Positions 3,059-50,816 of a DNA stretch of 51,514 nt are shown piece by piece (the stretch's first letter is position 1; each line of letters begins with the position of its first letter). The notes under the pieces were generated by a model, which was given only the letters and a program-made list of their open reading frames with translations, did not search any database and was not told the DNA's origin. The stretch comes from a virus, in IMG/VR virus record IMGVR_UViG_3300025655_000052, positions 1 through 51,514 of that record; one strand, given 5' to 3'. The translations under genes and the position numbers were made by a program.

Positions 3059-3267
3059 GTCATTGCTATTGTTATGTATGTTCCTACTATTAAAATTATC
3101 AATAAGTTAAATAAAACCCTGTCCAATATCCTACATCTTCTGTCCATCCACCTGTACCTGAAGCGTATGGAAACCACCCTTGAGATAGTCTTTATGTTCC
3201 TGTCGTATCCGTGAAGCAAGTAACAGGACAGAGCCACAATTATTGTAATCAAAAATATCCATATCAT
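3052..3267 (-). CDS. two-helix membrane protein, 71 aa
   Basis: The first ATG (3267) overlaps the end of the recombinase gene. Two hydrophobic stretches are seen: IWIFLITIIVALSCYLLHG (residues 2-20) and VLFNLLIILIVGTYITIAM (about 51-69). They are separated by a strongly basic loop (RYRWMDRRCRILDR), so the loop is probably cytoplasmic. Size and topology are compatible with a small holin or a superinfection protein, but nothing specific is recognised. Confidence 0.6.
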   Translation of the reverse strand: MIWIFLITIIVALSCYLLHGYDRNIKTISRVVSIRFRYRWMDRRCRILDRVLFNLLIILIVGTYITIAMTW

Positions 3268-3959
3268 TACTTTATCAGTTTATGTACACTGTACTTATTG
3301 TATTGTCTGCCAGTAGCCGTGATGAAGCCGTTACTATTTAGCTTTTCAGCTATCTCTTTAAGCTCCAGACCTCTGCCTCTCAGCTCCATTGCGTATGGCC
3401 GTGCCATCCTCGTGTTTCGATTGTTCTTGAACCTCTGACTGATAACTTCTCCACCTTTCCTCCTGTGTTCATCCGTCAGGTTCTCAGGTGTTCCAAGAGA
3501 TGTTATCTTTCGACCAGACCTCGAAACGTAGCTACCCTCCTTATTTATTCTCTCCTTGATTGAGCCAAGACCAGCCTTTGTTCTTGAAGATATAGCCTCA
3601 GCCTCACTCTCTGCAACAGACGCTAAGAGATTGATAGTCAGCTTGTTAGCATTAGGATTATCGCAACAGACGAAGTCAACACCCGTTCTACTCAGGCTCG
3701 ATATGAAGTGTACGTCCCTCGCAAGTCTGTCTAACTTGGCTATCAGTAGCTTGGCTCCTGTCTCCTTGCACATCTCGATAGCCTCAGCGAGTATAGGTCG
3801 TTCACGTTTCGATGTTCCTGTCTCCTTCTCTGTGAACTCCTTGATGATGACACCGTTCCTGACGTATCCATGTACCATTCTGACCTGAGCCTCAAGACCA
3901 AGACCTGACTCTCCCTGTCTCTTAGTGGAAACCCTATAGTATGCTACGTATCTATCCAT
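3267..3959 (-). CDS. serine recombinase / resolvase
   Basis: A 230-residue small serine recombinase. The catalytic serine is Ser11 in YYRVSTKRQ, followed by SGLGLEAQ, and the conserved AKLDRLARD motif lies at residues 75-82, where the arginines help the serine attack the phosphodiester. An N-terminal catalytic domain (1-140) and a long helix lead to a C-terminal region (about 165-230) with GLELKEIAEKLNSNGF, a helix-turn-helix that would bind the crossover site. Length matches resolvases and invertases rather than the 450-600 residue large serine integrases. It may resolve genome multimers, invert a segment or serve a mobile module. No att or res site was identified. Confidence 0.9.
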   Translation of the reverse strand: MDRYVAYYRVSTKRQGESGLGLEAQVRMVHGYVRNGVIIKEFTEKETGTSKRERPILAEAIEMCKETGAKLLIAKLDRLARDVHFISSLSRTGVDFVCCDNPNANKLTINLLASVAESEAEAISSRTKAGLGSIKERINKEGSYVSRSGRKITSLGTPENLTDEHRRKGGEVISQRFKNNRNTRMARPYAMELRGRGLELKEIAEKLNSNGFITATGRQYNKYSVHKLIK

Positions 3960-39440: not shown

Positions 39441-42400
39441 ATGGAAGAAAAAGACACATTGCTTACGGTAGATGAATTTGCTACTAAGATCAAGGAAAAG
39501 TATCCTGAGTACAAAGATGTAGACAATCTTACACTCGCTAATAAGATAGTTGAGAAATACCCTGAATATAAAAGCAAGGTTTCATTTGAGGGAACTCCAG
39601 AAGTAAAAAAAAAAGATTCGACACAGCCAGTTCAGACACAACCAGTTCAGACTCAAGAGGCTCCAACTCAGGCAGCTCCTTTGCCTGGTCTTGGAGGTGT
39701 TTCGGAAAGACCTACACCATCTCCTTCAGTTGGTATAGGTAAGGGGGTATTCCCAGCCAAGTCTCCAGTTCAAGACCTAAAGGAATCACTTCAAGACCCT
39801 CTTCTAAAGGCTCAGGAAAGAGCTACAAGACAGCAGCTTGAGCCTACATCTTCACAGAATCTACTCAGAACAGAGGCTTTCACTCCATCAAATGAGATAG
39901 TAGAAGACGCTGATTATAAGGAGTGGAAGTCAAATCTACCAGAGAATCTTCAACAAGAGACAGATGGATATGACCTGTATGGTGCGTATAAGGCAGGAAT
40001 GGAGCCAATTGAAGTTGCTCCTGGCGAATACCATTTATCTTCAAGAGATCCAAAGACTGGTAGAATACTGAAGTCAGAGGATCATGATACCTTTTATAAT
40101 TCAGTAATAGAAGATGATAAGCTTGGATATGTTACATACAAATCAAAGGACGGCAACATATATTCTAAGAAGCAGTATGAAATAGATATTGCTGGAGATG
40201 CACAGGAGATATTCCGTGTTGATGATACTGGTACGGTAGTAAAGGAAGTAGTTGAAACTGGAGAGGTTTTAACTCCAGTGGAGTTAGATGCTAAGAGAAG
40301 AGCTGTAAAGTTAGCTGGAATACGTCAGGAACTTTATGAGGACATTGGCGATAAGCTGTTCGATGAGAATTATATGTCATCAAGCAATGTAATAGACAAG
40401 TACGCACCTAAAGACGTTAAGGTAAGGGAGGCTCAGGGAGATCCAAGAGATTTAAGATTTGTTGATGTAATGAAGAGGGATCAGGAAAAAGAGGATAGAT
40501 ATAACCTTGCCCTGAACGAGGCTAAGAAGTCTGTGTTGCAGGATAAGCTTTACGGACTTGCTGAAAGTGGTGACGCATACATTGATATTGCTGAAGCTGA
40601 TCTTGACAAGGTAATGCAATCTTATCTTGATATGTCTGAATATACAGATAAGAAAGAAGGACCTTCGATATTGTATGGTAAAAGGGTAAAAAAAGAGACT
40701 GGTAACATTTATGAGATGTTACTTCCTAATCACGTTGAAGGATCAGAGCTTAAACTTGACGAAACAATAAGTCAATGGGTTGATTCTAAGGCTGAAGATA
40801 TGGAACTTTCTGGTGAGGCTAAAAGAATGATGAAGTCTCAGATCAAGCAGAACTATAAAGAAAGAAAAAGACTAGAGGCAGCAGCAAATGAAGTATCTAA
40901 GGAAACTGGTTACAACTTAGATGAAGTAAGGGGTGATGTAGATAAAGTTGTAAATGAAATAAATAGTTACGAGAATGAACTTAAATCTATTTATACCCCA
41001 TATGACGTAAAGGCTAAGAAGGCTCAAGAAAGAATGACACTTGAGTTTGAGCAGATTCAGGATAGGGTTATAAATAGAGTTTCTAATTCACAGGAATATA
41101 AAGACCTGTTATCTGAATATCAAGCAAAGGTAAATTCTGGTGAAATTACGGTAGAAGAGGCTAATTCTGCTGTATCACAGAAAATAAACATAATGCTTTC
41201 ACAAAGCCCAGAGGCGGTTGAACTTCAAAGAAAGTATCAGGGGGTATTAAGCAGTTATGACTCTGAATTACGTAAAAGAACAGAGGCTATATACGGTGAG
41301 CTACAATCATCTTTGGATCAGTTAAAGGGTCTATCAAAACAAGATGAAGAGTACAGAAGAAAATTGTCTGACAAGGTTAGGCAAATGTACAAGGATGAGC
41401 AATCAGAGATAGATTCTGATTGGAAAAAGCTTGCATTTGGCGGTCTTATTACTACAGAAAAGGATACAAAACTTGGTAGGGGTATTCGTAGTGGAATGGG
41501 AGATTTAGCGGCTAGTATTGCTGGTGGTGTTGAATATCTTGTAGGAGAAAATACATTAAGTGAAAAACTTGCCTCAATAAACAATCAGATAAAATCTGAT
41601 AATCCAATGATAGATCTTGGAGAGTTCGGATTTGAAGAGTTTGCTGAGAACCCATTCAATGAAGACTGGTGGGCTACAAGGGTAGCCCCATCTGCTCCAT
41701 TGACGTTTTCTTTAATGGCACCAGGAATAGGTGTTGGAGCTGGAACTACAGCACTTGCAACAAGAGTTGGTCTTACTGGTCTTTCTCGTGCGCTTGTTAC
41801 TGGTACTGTTTCTGGTATCGGCATGAGGGCAATGGAGAGTTTTACCGAGGCTGGTCTTCAGTATTATGATCTGATAGAAAGGGGCGAATCTGTAGATTAT
41901 GCCTCAAAACAGGCTGCTAAAACATACTCTGAGAACATGGATCTTCTGGCACTTGATGTCGCAGAGATGACTACGTTCTTTTTACCAGCATCAAGTAGGC
42001 TTGCTACTATGGCAAAGTTTGTGGCTCAGGTCCCAATGAATGCGGCAGAAGAGCTTTTGCAGGAGAGATTACCAGCAGAAGAGCTGGCATACAATAGATA
42101 CTTAAAGGGAGAGCTTACCCAAAAGGAAATAGCAGAAGGAGTGTCTGAGTACGAAAAGGTATTCTCAGGAGGTAAGTTCAGCGATATATACAATTTCTTA
42201 CAAACAGATCAGGGGCAAGAAGTTGCTCTTATAGGTAGTATATATGGTGGTGCGTTTGGCGCAGCATCGGTCCCTGGTGATATAAGCAGAGCAAACTCAA
42301 CAAGAAGACTCAACAACTTCCTTAATGAGGAGATTGTAAAGTATTCAGCCACAGAAACCACAAAAACAATTGGTAACTACAGAATAAACCCAGAAACAAA

Positions 42401-45400
42401 CGAATTAGAACTTGTTCCTGAATCAAAACCACTTGAGTTCGGTAGGGGTGGAGTTGTAGCTGGTCCTGCTGAAACAATGCAAGAGGCTAAGAATAGGAGG
42501 ATATGGCAGCTTAAGTCTACTCTTGACGAGATGCAGATGAAGGGTCTTATCAATGAGGATGATGCTAAACTTGGTAAGAAGCAGATTGATTTTGCATTCG
42601 GTGTTGCTGACCAAATGCCTGTAAATCTACCACTTGTAACCCGTGGTCAACTACTCCAGAAACTTACAGAGATCAGGGATCTTGAGGAGGGGCTTGAGGG
42701 AATGACTAACGAAACTCTTATTGATGCTCAAAAGAAAAAGATAGCCAAGCTAAAGAAGGAGTCTGAGGATATAATCGGTGGAACAGCACAGGGATATTTT
42801 ATAAATAATGTAAGTGTAACAAAAGAACAGTTTGCTAAAATAGCTTCTAATTCAAAATTTGCTGAAGGAGTTATAAATGGAGAGATCGATGTAACCATAA
42901 TGAATGATGCAGATACTCAAAAAGGATTTGCAGAAGCAATAGAGGGATATAAGACTGACAAGGAGTCTTACGAATCCGCAATGGAGTCTCTTGGTGTAAC
43001 AAAAGCTGTACGTGACGAAGTTTCAGGTTACAACGAAAGTGTAACTAAAGAAGGCGGTATCGGTGCTAAGATAGCACCTATAATGACAAGGGTTGAAAAC
43101 TCAGAGCGTATTAATGAGAACGATATAAACGCTGCCATTGACGATATATTCGCAGAGATAGAGGCAGTTCAGAACTCAGACCTTAACGAGAAGACAAAAG
43201 AAATAATAACAAACACGCTGTACGACACAGCAGAGCAATTAGATAACTATGAATTTACAACAGAAACTCGCACTAAAACAGTTACCCAAAGCCGTACAGC
43301 TAAGAATCTTGGAGCGTTTGCAGAAAAAGTATCCGTTGAAAGCTTCTTCGACAACGCAGCTGGGACCATCGATGGAGAAGAAAATGTAAGGTTTACAACC
43401 GATAAAGGCGTAGTAAAAGCTACACGAGAAGACGGTACAGAATTTATACTTGACACCCCGTCTATGCGTATTGATGATGGGGACATAGTATTTGATGAAA
43501 ACGGTGTTCTGGAAAGTGTAACGGTAACGGACAGGAGTGGAACTAGGGTTACTTTCACTGGTGAAACAGCCATGGATCTTGCCATTCGTGATGGACAGAA
43601 TAAAGTCGGATCTGTTCCTGAAGCTGCGCTTCAGCAAATAATAACTGAGGAGGTTCAGGTAGAGGAAGAGGTATTAAAAAAACAACCTAAAACAAAGAAA
43701 GATGCCATTCAAGAGCAAGCAGCAGGTGAAGTACCTGTACAGCCAGAAGCCAAAGCTGGCGAAAAAGTGGAGGAAGGAGAACCCAAAGCAGAACCTGAAG
43801 TCACTACCCAAAAAGGTAAAGAAAAAGAAGTAGCCCCTGCCACTCAGGGTATTGTAAGTAAACTTCTTGAAAAGGTCAGTAATTCAAATGACGATGCTGT
43901 AACCAAGAAAAGAAAAAGAGCAGCACTTAGGGCTGTAGCAAACATTCTTAACTTCAAGTCCAACATCCTTCCTGACACAAAGGTAAAGGTGCATGAAACA
44001 GACGAATCATACAGGGCTGCAACTGGTGTTGATGGTCCTGGTGTTTACGATGCAACCAATGATACCATACATATAAACCTTGCACACGAAGAGGCTGGTG
44101 ACGAGACAGTGTATCACGAGATGATACACCCTATTATCTATAATGCTGTTAAGAACGAGACAGAGGCGCGTATCCTCACACAGAGAATGGTAGAAGGTGT
44201 TGTGCGCTCTTCTGGTGGCAATAAGGCAATCGTAGACAAACTGAAGGGATGGCTTGAGCAGTATGAGGCATCTGAGCGTCCAGAGGAAACCATAGCTGAG
44301 GTTGCTGGATTCCTTGCATCAGAGTTCAAGAACCTGACCCTAAGTGCTAAGAACATCATCAAAGACTACCTAAACAGGATGGCAAGGAGATTCGGTGGGA
44401 AGAATCTTTTCAGAGCAGTGTCAAAAGACGCTGATGTTGTCAAGGTTCTGAACAGACTGTCTGAGGCTATGAGAGCTGGAGAGGCTATTACCGCAGAGGA
44501 TCTAAGATCTGGAGAGTTTGAGATAAAGACTGGTGTTGAGAGAGAGGATTCAGTATCAATGAAACAAAGGCTTTCAAGTAAGGAAAGTATATCAGAAAAT
44601 GTTGGAGTATTAAATAACTCAATATCAAATGCAATAAAATTTGCGTCAGAATATTCATACGCAAATAATCTTGATTTTAAAAACGCTCTTCAAGAAAGAT
44701 TTAAAGAGGATCAAAAAGAAATAAAGAAGAAGTATGGGGTAAAATCATTTACGGAGATAAGCAGAATTGGTGAAAATAAACCATTGAAAGAATACCTTGT
44801 TGATGCTTACATAAATGAAACACTTATCGCATTACAAGCATACCCAGACGCTCTTGGATGGTACGATGCAAAAACAAAAGCGGCAATGTCTGTAATGTCG
44901 TTGATCCACCCAGAACTATCAACAAATAAAGACGCTGAATCTGCATTTAAAATAGTTCTTGCCATTACATCAAATGGTAACAAGGTGTTTGATAATTTCA
45001 AAGAGGCAAACAGGCAATATGAATACTTTAAAAAGAACGGAAAATTTGATGAGAAGAAATCTATTGGCACACAAAGTTCTGGAATAAAATCTTCTCTAAA
45101 ATTGGTGAATAATGTTCTTGACATAATTCCAATGTCTGATTTTTCAAGATTCTTAAATGAGAAATTTACCGTTTCAGATTTAAAATATAAGGACGAAAAA
45201 GGAAATACAAAAAATCTCTTATCTGGATTTCTTGCTAATACAGAGGTTTATGGTGCTTCAATTTTTGGGGCAAAAATCGGAAATGGATTCTATATGAACC
45301 TTAATGGCGTATTTGACCAACTTACAATGGATAGATGGTTCATGCGTCAATACGGTAGACTTACTGGTACACTTATAGATAGATCTACAGCTAAAGTAAA

Positions 45401-48400
45401 CAATGGTAAAATAAGACTTAAAGATTCTATTTCAAAATTATCAAACGAAGAGAAAAAGACACTAAGAAGTCTCATACCAGGGTATTCTTCAATGAATATG
45501 ATAGATCTTGCAAATTCAATTGAAAAAGTATCTGCAAAAACAGATAAAAGAAAAATCATATCTGAAGGAAATCTTAATGAACTGAGAAAGGCTGGTAATT
45601 CTCTTGCAAAAGACAATAGGGGTGAAATAGAGGCTCCAAAAGGAGGATCACAAAGAGCATTCATTATAGATGTTTTTAATTCTGTACAGGATAGGTTAAA
45701 AAATGATTTTGGAATTGACATAACAATTGCTGATCTTCAAGCTGTAAACTGGTATCCAGAGAAAGGTCTTTATAAAACCTTTCAAGAAGGAGCGCAAGAA
45801 TCATCTGGAAAAGAAGATGTAAGCGATAATGAGCAACCAGATTATGAAACAGCAGCAATAAGACTTGCTAAAGAACTTGGTGTAAAAGAATCTGAAATTA
45901 AAAAAGAATTAAATGAAACAAGACGAAGAGAATCCGATATCGAATCCGTTAGAGAATCTGTCAGATCAGGAGCTAAAGAGCTTGGCAGAACAGATAGCAA
46001 AGATGTCAAAAACGGGATCGAAGAAATAAAGCAATCAATACTTGATGTCAAATCTGGTAAAGCACAGCCAAAAGTAACTGGGAAACAACGTAAAGCCTCT
46101 CCAGAAAAATTTGTATCAGAACTTGAAAAAACAAAGGATTCTGATCCTACGCAGTATTGGAGCGTTGATTCTGTGAGTTTAAGTGCTGCAAAAAAGGGCA
46201 AGGTAATAAGCGTTGATGGCGGTTATGGATTCGTTTCAAATGACGGAGACATCAAGGGTGTATTCAAGCTACCTACGTCAAAGGCAAAAGGAGTTGCAGA
46301 CAATATCCTACAGGAGGCTGTAAACCAAGGAGGTACAAAGCTTGACAACTTTGACGGGTATCTTACAAAGATATACGAGAGAAACGGGTTCAGGATAGCC
46401 GCAAGGATTCCATTCAATGAAGAGTTTGCTCCTGACGGATGGAATAAGGAAAAGCATGGCACTCCAGATGTTGTTGCCATGGTGTATGATCCTAATAATG
46501 AACTCGGCATAAAGGAGAAGAAGTTTGATGACTACAATGCTGGTATAGAATACAGGGACTCGTTCTTAGAAGACAAAGCTCCTGCCGCTAAAAAACCTGG
46601 TGTTAAAGAAAGAAAAGCTGCTGCCCCAGACCAAAAGGTACGTGCAAGTATTGACTTCCAAAATAGATACGGAAAGTACTTCACAATAAGCAAGGAATTT
46701 AATAATCAGAAGCACCTTGACAATTACATCTCCTTCATGGAGCGTAAGGGTAATAAGGAGGTGGGAACAGAGACATTCCCTATCGGTCTTAAAGAAAGAA
46801 AACCATTAAAGTTTAGAAAACCAAGGATCAAAGACGGTCTTGAAGACTCAATAGATGATCAGAAGAAGGCTGGAATAATAAAGAGACTTGTTGACTCTCC
46901 TGGAAAAATAATAAAGGGTACAAACAAGCAGCTTTTTGATTTCAGGGGTGAACTGAAGGACTACATGAGAAATCAAGAAGAACTTGAATATGCATATTAT
47001 AGAACAATCAACGCACTCGGTTCAAATGGCGTTGCTAAACTTGCATTTGATAAGGCATACGAAAAGATCTACGATGGACTTGGACCAACAAAACGAGATG
47101 ACCTTGACAAGATAATCATCGCAAGGAGGATCATATCTATAAATCAGTCAAGGGCATTTAATAACCTTGACAAGATTGAGGATCTTTTCAACTCTCCGCC
47201 TAAGTTCTTCACTAAAAAGGGGGGAGAATATCTTGCATCATTTGAGCAGACAATGATTGATCTTATCGACACGGTAAGCAATTCTCCATTACTGAAGGAT
47301 ATGATCATTGAAGAGGCTGAAACGCTGATGTCAATGATGCCAGTAATGAACTCTATAGCCTCTAATCCAAACCTTACTGCAAAGGAGATATTGTCTGAGC
47401 AGAACAAGGTGATCAAGGAGCTTAAAAATGCGCTTGATAAAGTATTGAAGGCTGAAAACGTAACATTCACCAATAATAGAGGTGTAAAGAACGGTCTGAA
47501 TGAGGCTTATGAACTGCTTGACTCAAAGCGTAATGAAATAGGTGATAAGGTATTTGATGAGTTAAATGATCGTGCTGATAAATACTTTGCCAAGTTCCAG
47601 GAAATGCTTGATCAGGATCTTGCCGATGGTATAATATCTCAGGAGCAGTATGATGCAATGACTGGAATAGAGTATTCTCCAAGGGTGTTCATGCAGACGG
47701 TTTTAGACATAAATGACGATATAATCAATTCGAGAGAGGGTTCTGAATATATTGATAGGATGCTTGCCTCAAATTTCGGAATGAACAAGGATGCCATTAA
47801 GACCCTTAGAGATGGTATTGATGCAAAGGCAAAGCCAGATGCGACAGATAGATCTTTCTTTGAGATGATAACAAATTCCGAGGCACTGCTTGGAAACTAT
47901 ATCAACTCAAGGGAGCGTCTTAGAAAGATGAATGATCTAAGCCTATACATGGCAAATGAGATTTCTGCTCTTGAGACTAAATTCAATACTCTTTCAAATA
48001 AGGCAAGCCTTACAAAGGAAGAGCAGATGGAGCTTGAAACCATAAAGGAAACACTTGATGCATTCTCGACAAAGAAATCAACTGGATATCTACCTGTAAG
48101 ATACTATGAGAATGGTGTAAAAAAACAGTTCTATATCAGAGGAGATCTTTACAACCAGTGGTACAATATGAGGCCAGGTAGTCTTATCGGTGATTCAGCC
48201 GTTGGGAAGGTTGTTGATAAGATACTATCAAGTCCAGTTGCAGTTCTTAAAACATTTGCGACAGGAGCATTATCACCACTTTTCGGTATTACGGCTTCAG
48301 CTATTGACCTTCAACAATTGATGATATTCTCAGATGCCAAAGGGTTCAGTGAAATAATGCCATTTAAAGCTGCTCAAATAGCAAAAGACCTCGTTGGGGT

Positions 48401-50408
48401 TCCTTTCTATCAAAAGGGTGTAATAAGAAGTATCATAAGCGAAGACGAACTCTTTACGGAGGCTGTAAATGAGGGTATAATGATGGACTTCTTATATACA
48501 CAGGGTGGGATGGCCGATGCCGCTAAATTGATCAGAACTGGTCTTGAGTCCGCAATTGAGAAATCAGAACTTGGATATGCTGGATATGTGAGAACAAGAA
48601 AGGCTTTACTTAAAATAGCTGAAGCTACGCTCATACTGAACAAGGTTGCTGAAATAGCACCAAGACTTACAGCATATCAGAGAACAAGAGATTTCGAGTA
48701 TGCCAAGATAGACAAGATGGTACAGCAACAGGGTCTATCCAATGAAGAGGAGGAGAAAATGAGAAAGAACGCAAGGATCAAGGCTGCGGCAATTGCCAGA
48801 GAGCTTATGAACTTTTCGGAGGGTGGTGAATCTACGAAGCAGCTTGATAAATACTCAACATACCTGAATGCAGCAATGCAGGGTACGGTAACTTCTGCAA
48901 GGGAGTATAAGAAGAATCCTATCAGGACAACAAGCAGGATGGCTCAGTCAGCGGCCATGTTCTATGGTACGGTAATTGGCATGGCTACTTTCCTTGTTTG
49001 GTCACTTAAAGATGATGATGATGATAAGAAAGTAAATGATATCATTAAAGAGACAAGGGATAATGCGTCTGACTACGTAAAACAGAAATACTTCCTAATA
49101 CCAACTGGTAGAAAGGATAGGGATGGTAATTACACGAGCATAAGGTTGAAAAAACATCCTCAGTTAGTACCATTCTATGAGATGTTTGAAATAGGTTATG
49201 ACAATTTCCTTGCTGGTGATGATGCTGTTTCAATTGTAAGTAAGGAGAATGCACTTAGAATAAACCATGCGTTCTTCGATAACGCTTTACCAATGAACAT
49301 ATCTCCAATTGATAAGAATGGTAATATCAGAAGCGGTTGGGATGCTCCAAAAACACTCGCCCAGTCAAACCCACTTATTGGAGGTGGTATAGAGGCTATT
49401 ACTGGATATGACCTATATAGAAACAGAATGATAGAGCCACAAACATTCAACTCCGCTGGTACATCAGATGCCGTTAAGGGATTGTGGAATCCATACACGG
49501 AGGATTTCTATAAGTCATTTGCACTTGAAATGAAGGATGCAACTGGAACATCATTCTCACCAGCTCAGTACAAACATCTTGTAGAAAGAATGGTTACAAA
49601 CCCAAGAAACAACCTGTATGTTGCTGTGGGATATGCTGCATTGAACCAGTTTAACGACCTTGACATAACAGACAAGGAGCGTTCATTCTCTGAGGATCTT
49701 TATGACATGGTATCAAAAAAGGTAATACACTCATCGTCATCAAGAAAGGGAATGGACAAGGGTGGCGTAGATGAATTTCAAAAAGAACTTCAGGCACTTG
49801 ATGATAAGGAGTATCTTGTCAAAGAGGCGGCAAGAATGGCTATTAAAGACGCTAATGAAAAGGGTGGTTTTGGTAAATTGGTGAATGAGACTGAAACAAG
49901 AAAATACATAGTTGATGTACAGGATAGGTTCCTTGCCAATATGGAGGCGGTGTCAAAGAAGTACCCAGACATGAAATTTGATTCAAATGAGGCGTTATCG
50001 GACTACATTGAATTTATAGACAGGAATGCAGTCCTGTTTGTAAATCCAGTAGGTGATGAGTCAAGTAGGTATAAGTACAATGATATATTATCGGTAAAGC
50101 CTGGAAAAAACAAGTATAGGAAAATGGCTTTGTCAATGGCAAGCGCATTTAGAAACGAGGATATCATAAAGAAAGACCCATTGTCTCCAGAGGTTATCGA
50201 TAGGATGATAGATATTGTGATCACAGCAGAAAATTCAAAGAAAAAGGTTGGACCAGAGTTTGTCATTGAGTATGTAAAGCTATATAACGAAAAGAACAAC
50301 GTAAATCAAAGATCTGGTCCAGTTGTGGATGCTGTTAGAAGTGGTCTTAGGTCTGATTCAACGATTGTAAACCACCAAGGTATTCGTCAATCACTCATGA
50401 ACTGGTAA
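39441..50408 (+). CDS. giant internal virion polyprotein, 3655 aa
   Basis: One continuous frame of 10.97 kb. Residues 8-43 carry two YPEY motifs in a small helical domain common at the start of giant phage proteins. A Pro/Gln linker (about 52-100) and an alpha-rich part follow. Hydrophobic segments lie near 750-795 and 927-950 and another (FYGTVIGMATFLVW) near 3175-3190, followed by a poly-Asp run. A Lys/Glu-rich linker (about 1410-1470) leads to a zincin motif HEMIH (His1559, Glu1560, His1563). A domain ending LTMDRWFMRQYGRL (to about 1980) is like the LTMDRWW domain of phage polyproteins (DUF7178 from memory). A block at about 2254-2352 (GGYGFVSNDGDIKGVFK, then PDVVAMVYDP) is like a GNAT-fold piece. 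Probably packaged in the capsid and ejected; enzyme roles unproven. Confidence 0.7.
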   Translation: MEEKDTLLTVDEFATKIKEKYPEYKDVDNLTLANKIVEKYPEYKSKVSFEGTPEVKKKDSTQPVQTQPVQTQEAPTQAAPLPGLGGVSERPTPSPSVGIGKGVFPAKSPVQDLKESLQDPLLKAQERATRQQLEPTSSQNLLRTEAFTPSNEIVEDADYKEWKSNLPENLQQETDGYDLYGAYKAGMEPIEVAPGEYHLSSRDPKTGRILKSEDHDTFYNSVIEDDKLGYVTYKSKDGNIYSKKQYEIDIAGDAQEIFRVDDTGTVVKEVVETGEVLTPVELDAKRRAVKLAGIRQELYEDIGDKLFDENYMSSSNVIDKYAPKDVKVREAQGDPRDLRFVDVMKRDQEKEDRYNLALNEAKKSVLQDKLYGLAESGDAYIDIAEADLDKVMQSYLDMSEYTDKKEGPSILYGKRVKKETGNIYEMLLPNHVEGSELKLDETISQWVDSKAEDMELSGEAKRMMKSQIKQNYKERKRLEAAANEVSKETGYNLDEVRGDVDKVVNEINSYENELKSIYTPYDVKAKKAQERMTLEFEQIQDRVINRVSNSQEYKDLLSEYQAKVNSGEITVEEANSAVSQKINIMLSQSPEAVELQRKYQGVLSSYDSELRKRTEAIYGELQSSLDQLKGLSKQDEEYRRKLSDKVRQMYKDEQSEIDSDWKKLAFGGLITTEKDTKLGRGIRSGMGDLAASIAGGVEYLVGENTLSEKLASINNQIKSDNPMIDLGEFGFEEFAENPFNEDWWATRVAPSAPLTFSLMAPGIGVGAGTTALATRVGLTGLSRALVTGTVSGIGMRAMESFTEAGLQYYDLIERGESVDYASKQAAKTYSENMDLLALDVAEMTTFFLPASSRLATMAKFVAQVPMNAAEELLQERLPAEELAYNRYLKGELTQKEIAEGVSEYEKVFSGGKFSDIYNFLQTDQGQEVALIGSIYGGAFGAASVPGDISRANSTRRLNNFLNEEIVKYSATETTKTIGNYRINPETNELELVPESKPLEFGRGGVVAGPAETMQEAKNRRIWQLKSTLDEMQMKGLINEDDAKLGKKQIDFAFGVADQMPVNLPLVTRGQLLQKLTEIRDLEEGLEGMTNETLIDAQKKKIAKLKKESEDIIGGTAQGYFINNVSVTKEQFAKIASNSKFAEGVINGEIDVTIMNDADTQKGFAEAIEGYKTDKESYESAMESLGVTKAVRDEVSGYNESVTKEGGIGAKIAPIMTRVENSERINENDINAAIDDIFAEIEAVQNSDLNEKTKEIITNTLYDTAEQLDNYEFTTETRTKTVTQSRTAKNLGAFAEKVSVESFFDNAAGTIDGEENVRFTTDKGVVKATREDGTEFILDTPSMRIDDGDIVFDENGVLESVTVTDRSGTRVTFTGETAMDLAIRDGQNKVGSVPEAALQQIITEEVQVEEEVLKKQPKTKKDAIQEQAAGEVPVQPEAKAGEKVEEGEPKAEPEVTTQKGKEKEVAPATQGIVSKLLEKVSNSNDDAVTKKRKRAALRAVANILNFKSNILPDTKVKVHETDESYRAATGVDGPGVYDATNDTIHINLAHEEAGDETVYHEMIHPIIYNAVKNETEARILTQRMVEGVVRSSGGNKAIVDKLKGWLEQYEASERPEETIAEVAGFLASEFKNLTLSAKNIIKDYLNRMARRFGGKNLFRAVSKDADVVKVLNRLSEAMRAGEAITAEDLRSGEFEIKTGVEREDSVSMKQRLSSKESISENVGVLNNSISNAIKFASEYSYANNLDFKNALQERFKEDQKEIKKKYGVKSFTEISRIGENKPLKEYLVDAYINETLIALQAYPDALGWYDAKTKAAMSVMSLIHPELSTNKDAESAFKIVLAITSNGNKVFDNFKEANRQYEYFKKNGKFDEKKSIGTQSSGIKSSLKLVNNVLDIIPMSDFSRFLNEKFTVSDLKYKDEKGNTKNLLSGFLANTEVYGASIFGAKIGNGFYMNLNGVFDQLTMDRWFMRQYGRLTGTLIDRSTAKVNNGKIRLKDSISKLSNEEKKTLRSLIPGYSSMNMIDLANSIEKVSAKTDKRKIISEGNLNELRKAGNSLAKDNRGEIEAPKGGSQRAFIIDVFNSVQDRLKNDFGIDITIADLQAVNWYPEKGLYKTFQEGAQESSGKEDVSDNEQPDYETAAIRLAKELGVKESEIKKELNETRRRESDIESVRESVRSGAKELGRTDSKDVKNGIEEIKQSILDVKSGKAQPKVTGKQRKASPEKFVSELEKTKDSDPTQYWSVDSVSLSAAKKGKVISVDGGYGFVSNDGDIKGVFKLPTSKAKGVADNILQEAVNQGGTKLDNFDGYLTKIYERNGFRIAARIPFNEEFAPDGWNKEKHGTPDVVAMVYDPNNELGIKEKKFDDYNAGIEYRDSFLEDKAPAAKKPGVKERKAAAPDQKVRASIDFQNRYGKYFTISKEFNNQKHLDNYISFMERKGNKEVGTETFPIGLKERKPLKFRKPRIKDGLEDSIDDQKKAGIIKRLVDSPGKIIKGTNKQLFDFRGELKDYMRNQEELEYAYYRTINALGSNGVAKLAFDKAYEKIYDGLGPTKRDDLDKIIIARRIISINQSRAFNNLDKIEDLFNSPPKFFTKKGGEYLASFEQTMIDLIDTVSNSPLLKDMIIEEAETLMSMMPVMNSIASNPNLTAKEILSEQNKVIKELKNALDKVLKAENVTFTNNRGVKNGLNEAYELLDSKRNEIGDKVFDELNDRADKYFAKFQEMLDQDLADGIISQEQYDAMTGIEYSPRVFMQTVLDINDDIINSREGSEYIDRMLASNFGMNKDAIKTLRDGIDAKAKPDATDRSFFEMITNSEALLGNYINSRERLRKMNDLSLYMANEISALETKFNTLSNKASLTKEEQMELETIKETLDAFSTKKSTGYLPVRYYENGVKKQFYIRGDLYNQWYNMRPGSLIGDSAVGKVVDKILSSPVAVLKTFATGALSPLFGITASAIDLQQLMIFSDAKGFSEIMPFKAAQIAKDLVGVPFYQKGVIRSIISEDELFTEAVNEGIMMDFLYTQGGMADAAKLIRTGLESAIEKSELGYAGYVRTRKALLKIAEATLILNKVAEIAPRLTAYQRTRDFEYAKIDKMVQQQGLSNEEEEKMRKNARIKAAAIARELMNFSEGGESTKQLDKYSTYLNAAMQGTVTSAREYKKNPIRTTSRMAQSAAMFYGTVIGMATFLVWSLKDDDDDKKVNDIIKETRDNASDYVKQKYFLIPTGRKDRDGNYTSIRLKKHPQLVPFYEMFEIGYDNFLAGDDAVSIVSKENALRINHAFFDNALPMNISPIDKNGNIRSGWDAPKTLAQSNPLIGGGIEAITGYDLYRNRMIEPQTFNSAGTSDAVKGLWNPYTEDFYKSFALEMKDATGTSFSPAQYKHLVERMVTNPRNNLYVAVGYAALNQFNDLDITDKERSFSEDLYDMVSKKVIHSSSSRKGMDKGGVDEFQKELQALDDKEYLVKEAARMAIKDANEKGGFGKLVNETETRKYIVDVQDRFLANMEAVSKKYPDMKFDSNEALSDYIEFIDRNAVLFVNPVGDESSRYKYNDILSVKPGKNKYRKMALSMASAFRNEDIIKKDPLSPEVIDRMIDIVITAENSKKKVGPEFVIEYVKLYNEKNNVNQRSGPVVDAVRSGLRSDSTIVNHQGIRQSLMNW

Positions 50409-50459: not shown

Positions 50460-50816
50460 ATGCCGAAGGATGCGTGTTATAGAAAAGTAAAGGCGAAGTA
50501 CAAAGTATTTCCGAGTGCAAGAGCATCACAAGCTATAGCAAAGTGCCGTAAGGCGAGTGGTACAGTAAAGAAGAGTAAGTCAGGAACGGAGCTAAAAAGG
50601 TGGGAAAAGGAAAAATGGGTTGATACCCGAACAGGTAAAGCCTGTGGTGCTGGTGGTAAGAACGAGTATTGCAGACCTACTAAGCGTGTTTCGAGCAAGA
50701 CACCTAAGACAAAGGGTGAAATGTCAGGTTCGGAACTCGCAAGAAAGAAGAGGGAGAAGAGTAAGATTGGAATGGGTAAACGAGTAAAAGCGGTTAAACG
50801 TGGCAGAAAAGGGTAA
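50460..50816 (+). CDS. basic DUF5872-like protein, 118 aa
   Basis: Begins MPKDACYRKVKAKYKVFPSA and has RASQAIAKCRK, KWVDTRTGKACG and KNEYCRPTKRVSS. This order (CYxKVKxxYxVxPSAxAS...KCRK...GKxCG...CRP) matches the DUF5872 family as I recall it, found in virion-packed basic proteins of phages and large DNA viruses. Lys/Arg richness indicates DNA binding in the capsid. The 3' end overlaps the next gene. Confidence 0.7.
   Translation: MPKDACYRKVKAKYKVFPSARASQAIAKCRKASGTVKKSKSGTELKRWEKEKWVDTRTGKACGAGGKNEYCRPTKRVSSKTPKTKGEMSGSELARKKREKSKIGMGKRVKAVKRGRKG

Follow-up and report, generated by a model that had tools for sequence, protein, structure and literature searches.

The window is the whole of a 51,514-bp virus contig from IMG/VR, and its last large gene is a giant open reading frame (ORF) that extends from 39441 to 50408 on the + strand, with an ATG start and 3,655 codons without interruption; the start lies 3 bases past the stop of the preceding ORF. 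A probable terminase precedes it, as do a portal (phrog_6547, 1e-26) and a large virion protein (phrog_28748, 8e-27), and the gene order of the window is large terminase, portal, one gene, major capsid/virion protein, giant ORF. An earlier note on this DNA had claimed a 3655-residue protein in one frame; the frame is indeed intact, and L087, a syntenic relative, retains it for 3,872 aa, most of which is 60-74% identical. The giant ORF is real, since the frame is too long for chance and L087 keeps it. Its features are as follows (aa, residues of the giant protein).

39441-50408 (+), giant ORF, a large polyvalent protein (LPVP) by its relatives; 3,655 aa, 10.97 kb
39480-39572 (+), N-terminal tag, tandem repeat ATKIKEKYPEYK / ANKIVEKYPEYK; aa 14-25 and 33-44; 0 of 100 shuffles reach this repeat
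39603-39860 (+), KKKD and, directly after it, a linker rich in S/T/P/Q; aa 55 to about 140
39603-42965 (+), N-terminal backbone; aa 55-1175, 74% identical in L087
43878-44540 (+), zincin-type metallopeptidase domain, related to the elemoA 'structural protein'; aa 1480-1700
44115-44129 (+), HEMIH motif; aa 1559-1563
44547-44588 (+), boundary motif 1, VSMKQRLSSKE; aa 1703-1716
44613-46061 (+), LTMDRW domain, an all-helical fold in the model; about aa 1725-2207
45321-45338 (+), LTMDRW signature; aa 1961-1966
46074-46157 (+), boundary 2, 27-aa joint TGKQRKASPEKFVSELEKTKDSDPTQY, identical in L087 with other modules on both sides
46158-46520 (+), GNAT-like acetyltransferase-fold domain; about aa 2240-2360; phrog_2563 2e-9
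46590-46622 (+), boundary 3, KKPGVKERKAA; aa 2384-2394
46779-46808 (+), boundary 4, PIGLKERKPL; aa 2447-2456
46968-49940 (+), C-terminal helical module, shared with Panino and phi46:3; about aa 2510-3500
48237-48293 (+), moderately hydrophobic stretch VAVLKTFATGALSPLFGIT; aa 2933-2951
48942-48998 (+), moderately hydrophobic stretch AQSAAMFYGTVIGMATFLV; aa 3168-3186
49365-49589 (+), LPD38-like segment; aa 3309-3383; E 1.3e-4, 17 bits, below the cut-off of 27

The gene order of the window recurs in Maribacter phage Panino, a podovirus by electron microscopy (PMC11590407), and matches that of podovirus phi46:3 as well. Judged by its sequence, the window phage is podovirus-like and syntenic with Flavobacteriia phages, and its relatives indicate that the host is probably a member of the Bacteroidota. 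Hardly any cultured phage has a relative of the window's terminase or portal, so the lineage appears to be undescribed; when further close relatives of it were looked for, the L087 contig alone was found. An ORF at 3267-3959 (-) resembles a serine recombinase/resolvase (VAYYRVSTKRQGESGLGLEAQ), which could point to a temperate life style, or else to a mobile passenger. After the giant ORF, at 50460-50816 (+), a small basic protein (beginning MPKDACYRKVKAKYKVFPSARASQAIAKCRKA) is encoded that adjoins a 98-aa basic ORF and is kept downstream of the giant ORF in L087.

The N-terminus, described earlier as a YPEY domain, is present in the form of a 12-residue tandem repeat within the first 45 residues. 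In L087 the first 54 residues are an unrelated, likewise duplicated tag, and homology between the two proteins starts exactly at KKKDSTQPVQTQ (aa 55). The low-complexity linkers that had been noted were located at aa 51-100 and aa 1401-1470. A significant tandem repeat within the first 100 residues is displayed by 37 of 79 non-redundant LPVPs compared to 39 of 300 other ORFs; furthermore, 29 of the 79 contain KKK at aa 25-95, mostly right behind the tag (background 2.9%, p 3e-24), as do 3 of the 300 other ORFs. By analogy with the head-targeting N-termini of other phages, loading of the protein into the particle is the probable role of the N-terminal tag. Very short N-terminal repeats also occur in LPVPs of other phages (L130, L131, L118, L128, L116, L076), and include SLTDQMF three times, SGLDLL three times, TSYVFKSVLKN twice and repeats of PDQWSPPEDEL.

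The zincin motif of the earlier note reads HEMIH (aa 1559), and some 60 aa downstream of it there is a conserved E..E; in Flavobacterium elemo phages a 'structural protein' matches aa 1499-1690 with 33% identity. The AlphaFold model places strands at model residues 35-39, 55-58 and 63-67 ahead of the motif helix (75-93); the region thus combines the HExxH and downstream Glu with the small sheet and flanking helices by which a zincin is recognised. HExxH is found in 71 of 97 representative giant ORFs compared to 0.8 in shuffled sequence. MPTase-PolyVal (PF18818) has no match in the window at E<=1; Iyer et al. describe 12 MPTase clades (PMC5512222), and the window zincin may therefore belong to another clade.

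The LTMDRW domain and the GNAT-like block, both proposed in the earlier note, follow the zincin. The LTMDRW signature is invariant or nearly so across 53 aligned relatives, and the domain is 60% identical in L001 and 31-38% identical in Limnohabitans phage DC33 and a freshwater podovirus. In IMG/VR it occupies at least 477 viral loci; it is present in a few bacterial genomes, and solo or partial versions are carried by alphaproteobacterial megaplasmids. A solo 533-aa LTMDRW protein is encoded on Bosea sp. RAC05 plasmid pBSY19_1 (L147, 11722-13323), with genes for an LPD1-domain protein and an ADP-ribosylglycohydrolase within a few kb, and a related sequence lies on the M. extorquens AM1 megaplasmid. 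DUF7178 matches the LTMDRW domain in four relatives, weakly and locally (E 0.004-0.015). Assignment as an HhH-GPD DNA glycosylase was considered, as the motif resembles VDTHxxR, and was rejected; the hhalign probability is 0.1-0.3%, equal to that of unrelated controls.

The GNAT-like block has a GNAT-like fold in the model, and Foldseek against the PDB returns GNAT proteins with a probability of 0.92-0.98 and target TM of 0.39-0.44, but with E 0.16-0.2 for this long query. Its acetyl-CoA loop is KAKGVA, which is non-canonical and does not have the usual first Q/R. The pair of LTMDRW and GNAT is also found in DC33 and many contigs. No PDB sequence match of substance was obtained for the central region. 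AlphaFold2 modeling of aa 1480-2380 from a 62-sequence alignment gave a mean pLDDT of 84, with the LTMDRW part mostly >90; a BFVD fold search with this folded centre matched predicted phage proteins annotated as LPVPs (best E 2.7e-34). Homology and the model, taken with the Foldseek and BFVD results, support zincin, LTMDRW and GNAT-like folds rather than the coiled coil alone that the earlier note had named as contradicting its own reading.

The C-terminal module is the part shared with described podoviruses; aa 2689-3473 have 25-28% identity to Panino and phi46:3, and the module was found at 54 viral loci, located in the C-terminal part of giant ORFs. The model of aa 2460-3655 consists almost entirely of helices (pLDDT 71), and no fold match for the module was found in the PDB. 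The window has a below-cut-off match to the second half of LPD38, which exceeds the curated cut-off in 12 of 31 searched records with the C-terminal module, with relatives reaching 3.7e-41. Hydrophobic segments had also been claimed; two such stretches exist, but they are moderate only, with a mean Kyte-Doolittle value of 1.34-1.37.

Based on its homologues and domains the giant ORF product is an LPVP, not a new class of protein. Single-sequence domain scans of the giant ORF gave almost nothing; the domains came from homology. Both DC33 and MW202640 share the central modules of the window and pass the Pfam cut-offs (LPD22 8e-23 and 5e-13, ART-PolyVal 8e-21 and 2e-22, respectively). One polypeptide contains several disparate domains (zincin, GNAT-like fold and the separate LTMDRW domain), and its phage neighbourhood contains structural genes, with the portal and virion protein upstream in a Panino-like order. 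The earlier reading of an LPVP in a podovirus-like phage is supported by the modules shared with Pfam-positive relatives, LPD38 in records with the same C-terminal module, the fold matches and the gene order; it needs the qualification that the domain combination is not unusual among LPVPs. From homologues and gene order the protein is most likely present in virions and ejected with the DNA; the labels 'virion' and 'polyprotein' in the earlier note are inferred. Pfam and NCBIfam scans did not find an N4-type single-subunit RNA polymerase domain, and a scan with a defence-system library had no match.

The LPVPs of Iyer et al. (2017, J Bacteriol, PMC5512222) resemble the window protein as giant phage ORFs in a structural block with zincin, GNAT-like and LPD38-like parts, and through the ART-PolyVal and LPD22 of its relatives; the window protein differs in the LTMDRW domain, which has no Pfam match above cut-off, in private repeated inter-module linkers, and in a duplicated, exchangeable N-terminal tag with KKK. 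In the virion RNA polymerase gp50 of phage N4, a large helical C-terminal domain that has no known fold relatives comes after an HExxH domain (PMC12633501); this arrangement, the length of about 3,500 residues and the podovirus setting are similar, however no RNA polymerase domain was found in the window, where the cargo is LTMDRW and GNAT. Giant structural proteins of Pachyviridae, Panino and Elemovirus (phi46:3 gp120-121, Panino PANI_CDS0069, elemoA gp21) have the same position after the terminase, portal and capsid genes; those of phi46:3 and Panino have the C-terminal module in common with the window, and that of elemoA the zincin. Their identity is only 25-33% and they carry other cargo, and the phi46:3 protein, unlike that of the window, is split into two ORFs. 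The Dar proteins of phage P1 are carried in the head and enter the host, and a head protease removes an N-terminal piece of DarA (PMC12810830); here the likeness is one of description, no sequence relation being apparent, and Dar consists of several separate proteins.

The LPVP of Panino (L003, 17061-22550) is apparently misnamed 'tRNA methyltransferase' and that of MW202640 (L006, 9276-17654) 'crystallin beta/gamma motif-containing protein'. LPVPs split into two ORFs are seen at L002 16161-22680 (phi46:3 gp120/gp121) and L079 3713-12145, and L079 encodes its GNAT module just downstream, as an independent ORF of 191 aa. Limnohabitans phage DC33 (PQ492659.1, L004) is filed by GenBank under Inoviridae, a taxonomy that looks wrong; its 39-kb genome encodes an LPVP and podovirus-like late genes.

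Comparison of the window protein with L087 separates conserved from exchanged parts. Protein identity is 74% in the N-terminal part, 67% in the zincin and 60% in the C-terminal part (77%, 87% and 69% for DNA); the tag and the central cargo are unrelated. The interval from zincin to C-terminal module holds LTMDRW and GNAT in the window and about 1,000 residues with about three other modules in L087, one of which has a weak ART-PolyVal match (4e-5, below cut-off). The DNA of boundary 2 (83 bp) is 93% identical between the two, and as the 27-aa joint differs at four synonymous sites, the two versions do not stem from a single copied read. Boundary 3 appears as a hybrid; its left half matches the L087 joint at aa 2338 and its right half that at aa 2628, with KKPGVKERKA-AAPDQKV of the window taking its left from L087 joint 2 (KKPGVKERKA-ISAH) and its right from L087 joint 3 (SGKQRKAS-APDQKV), as expected if recombination between joints lost or gained a module.

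Other pairs display related events. L009 has one extra module relative to L007, between two FSVDE copies, with flanks 87% and 99% identical; L074 and L079 differ by a module present or absent at QFMPAE, a less clean case with a second deletion away from the motif. By eye, the gained or lost module is ParB-like in L009 (aa 2027-2201) and ASCH-like in L074 (aa 2144-2272). Among 20 non-redundant module-scale indels of relatives, direct repeats were found at the breakpoints of 2 at p<=0.05 (Mann-Whitney p 0.36 against control positions), so the idea that all module indels occur at direct repeats is not supported; repeat-guided swapping is thus not universal and is supported only for linker-bearing proteins. 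Sequence comparison supports joints at repeated linkers for the window lineage and one or two other pairs.

The linkers share the motif [GM]xK[QE]R[KLI][ASGP] (x optional), which was defined after inspection and has four copies in the window (aa 1707, 2214, 2387 and 2449) and five in L087, compared to 0.02 in shuffled sequence and 0.02 per protein in other LPVPs. Private linkers are found elsewhere: AAEQR seven times with one APEQR in L014, FSRKQ five times in L069, QFMPAE four times in L074 and FSVDE three times in L009, the shorter FMPAE being found three to four times in other LPVPs; proteins with such repeats number 7 of 97, compared to 0.6 in shuffles. Identical residues of linker copies share a codon in 76% of comparisons compared to 42% expected, and conservation ends sharply beyond a 15-18 bp core; at the DNA level, the copies of the window motif have diverged further than those of L014 and are also shorter. 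The two linkers on either side of the LTMDRW domain are more alike within a protein than between proteins (0 of 10,000 permutations), also when set against random segments of the same proteins (Wilcoxon p 1.6e-4; 10 of 52 proteins individually). Exact in-frame 13-bp repeats with at least three copies at module boundaries are found in L014 and L074 alone; a third exact 13-bp family, in L095, looks like chance. An IMG/VR search with the L014 repeat pattern returned 68 stretches, 67 of them single-copy and presumably due to chance; no contig besides its own has multiple copies of the pattern. An R[FY]S linker motif common to all LPVPs was rejected for want of enrichment (60 observed, 59 expected). 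The repeat-linker rule holds for a subset of LPVPs that includes the window protein.

In Rhs/CDI polymorphic toxins, boundary motifs precede exchangeable C-termini, and a short conserved motif likewise marks the point of module exchange; in the window the motif recurs several times in one protein and differs between proteins. No reports of private repeated linkers or duplicated tags were found in open-licence literature; the protein itself is of a known kind, and its modular grammar is apparently unreported.

The explanation considered likely is that of an LPVP carried in the phage head and delivered along with the DNA, with an exchangeable tag for loading, cargo slots at repeated joints and release by the zincin. 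The layout would comprise the exchangeable duplicated tag, the KKK element, a disordered linker, the backbone, the zincin, the cargo slots and the LPD38-bearing helical C-terminal module; the slots would be filled by LTMDRW and the GNAT fold in the window phage and by about three other modules in L087, with the short linkers repeated within the protein as their edges. At these linkers, acting as joints, whole modules would be gained, lost or replaced by recombination, a step that the relatives support. Homologues and gene order suggest packaging in the head and ejection with the DNA; loading would probably be the role of the tag, and release of modules, perhaps at the linkers, would probably fall to the zincin, either ahead of injection or after it.

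A somewhat unlikely alternative is that the linkers are protease sites of a true polyprotein, in which its own zincin or a head protease cuts a protein-private motif to free the enzymes, and the shared codons come merely from linkers spreading along with their modules. The zincin does lie inside the protein, and the linkers are short, stand between modules, lack conservation outside the core and are private to each protein, AAEQR being multiple only in its own contig among the 68 stretches; furthermore, zincin processing of LPVPs in general was proposed by Iyer et al. (PMC5512222). The codon identity of 76% compared to 42%, however, exceeds what protein-level selection alone would need, and the N4 virion RNA polymerase has an HExxH domain (PMC12633501) yet is packaged unprocessed (PMC5512222). 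It is quite unlikely that the protein is mainly a structural ejection protein, a channel or core similar to T7 gp16 or N4 gp50 in which enzyme-like domains are decayed, inactive passengers; the helical C-terminal module is the part common to described podoviruses, annotated relatives are named virion structural proteins and the GNAT loop KAKGVA is non-canonical, but conservation of both HExxH and the LTMDRW signature is strict and the cargo modules are exchanged, not eroded. That the cargo difference between the window and L087 is an artefact of chimeric metagenome assembly is highly improbable, for although both are metagenomic contigs, every joint is in frame, the same kind of event occurred independently in L009/L007 and L074/L079, and the LTMDRW and GNAT pair recurs in DC33 and many contigs.

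Beyond the favoured explanation of exchangeable cargo at repeated joints, LPVPs may be self-processing cassette arrays, in which the private linker is both the recombination joint and the site of the protein's own protease, and the duplicated, interchangeable tag addresses the particle; this is considered rather unlikely, and if true, each newly gained cassette would be released automatically. LPVPs have so far been described as domain collections, which left open how modules are joined, exchanged and loaded. The LTMDRW domain adds a common module to this class, and the short private boundary repeats provide a concrete rule for acquiring new injected enzymes and show where modules end in proteins that are hard to annotate by domain; the duplicated exchangeable tag would account for how these giants reach the particle, provided that it serves as a packaging address.
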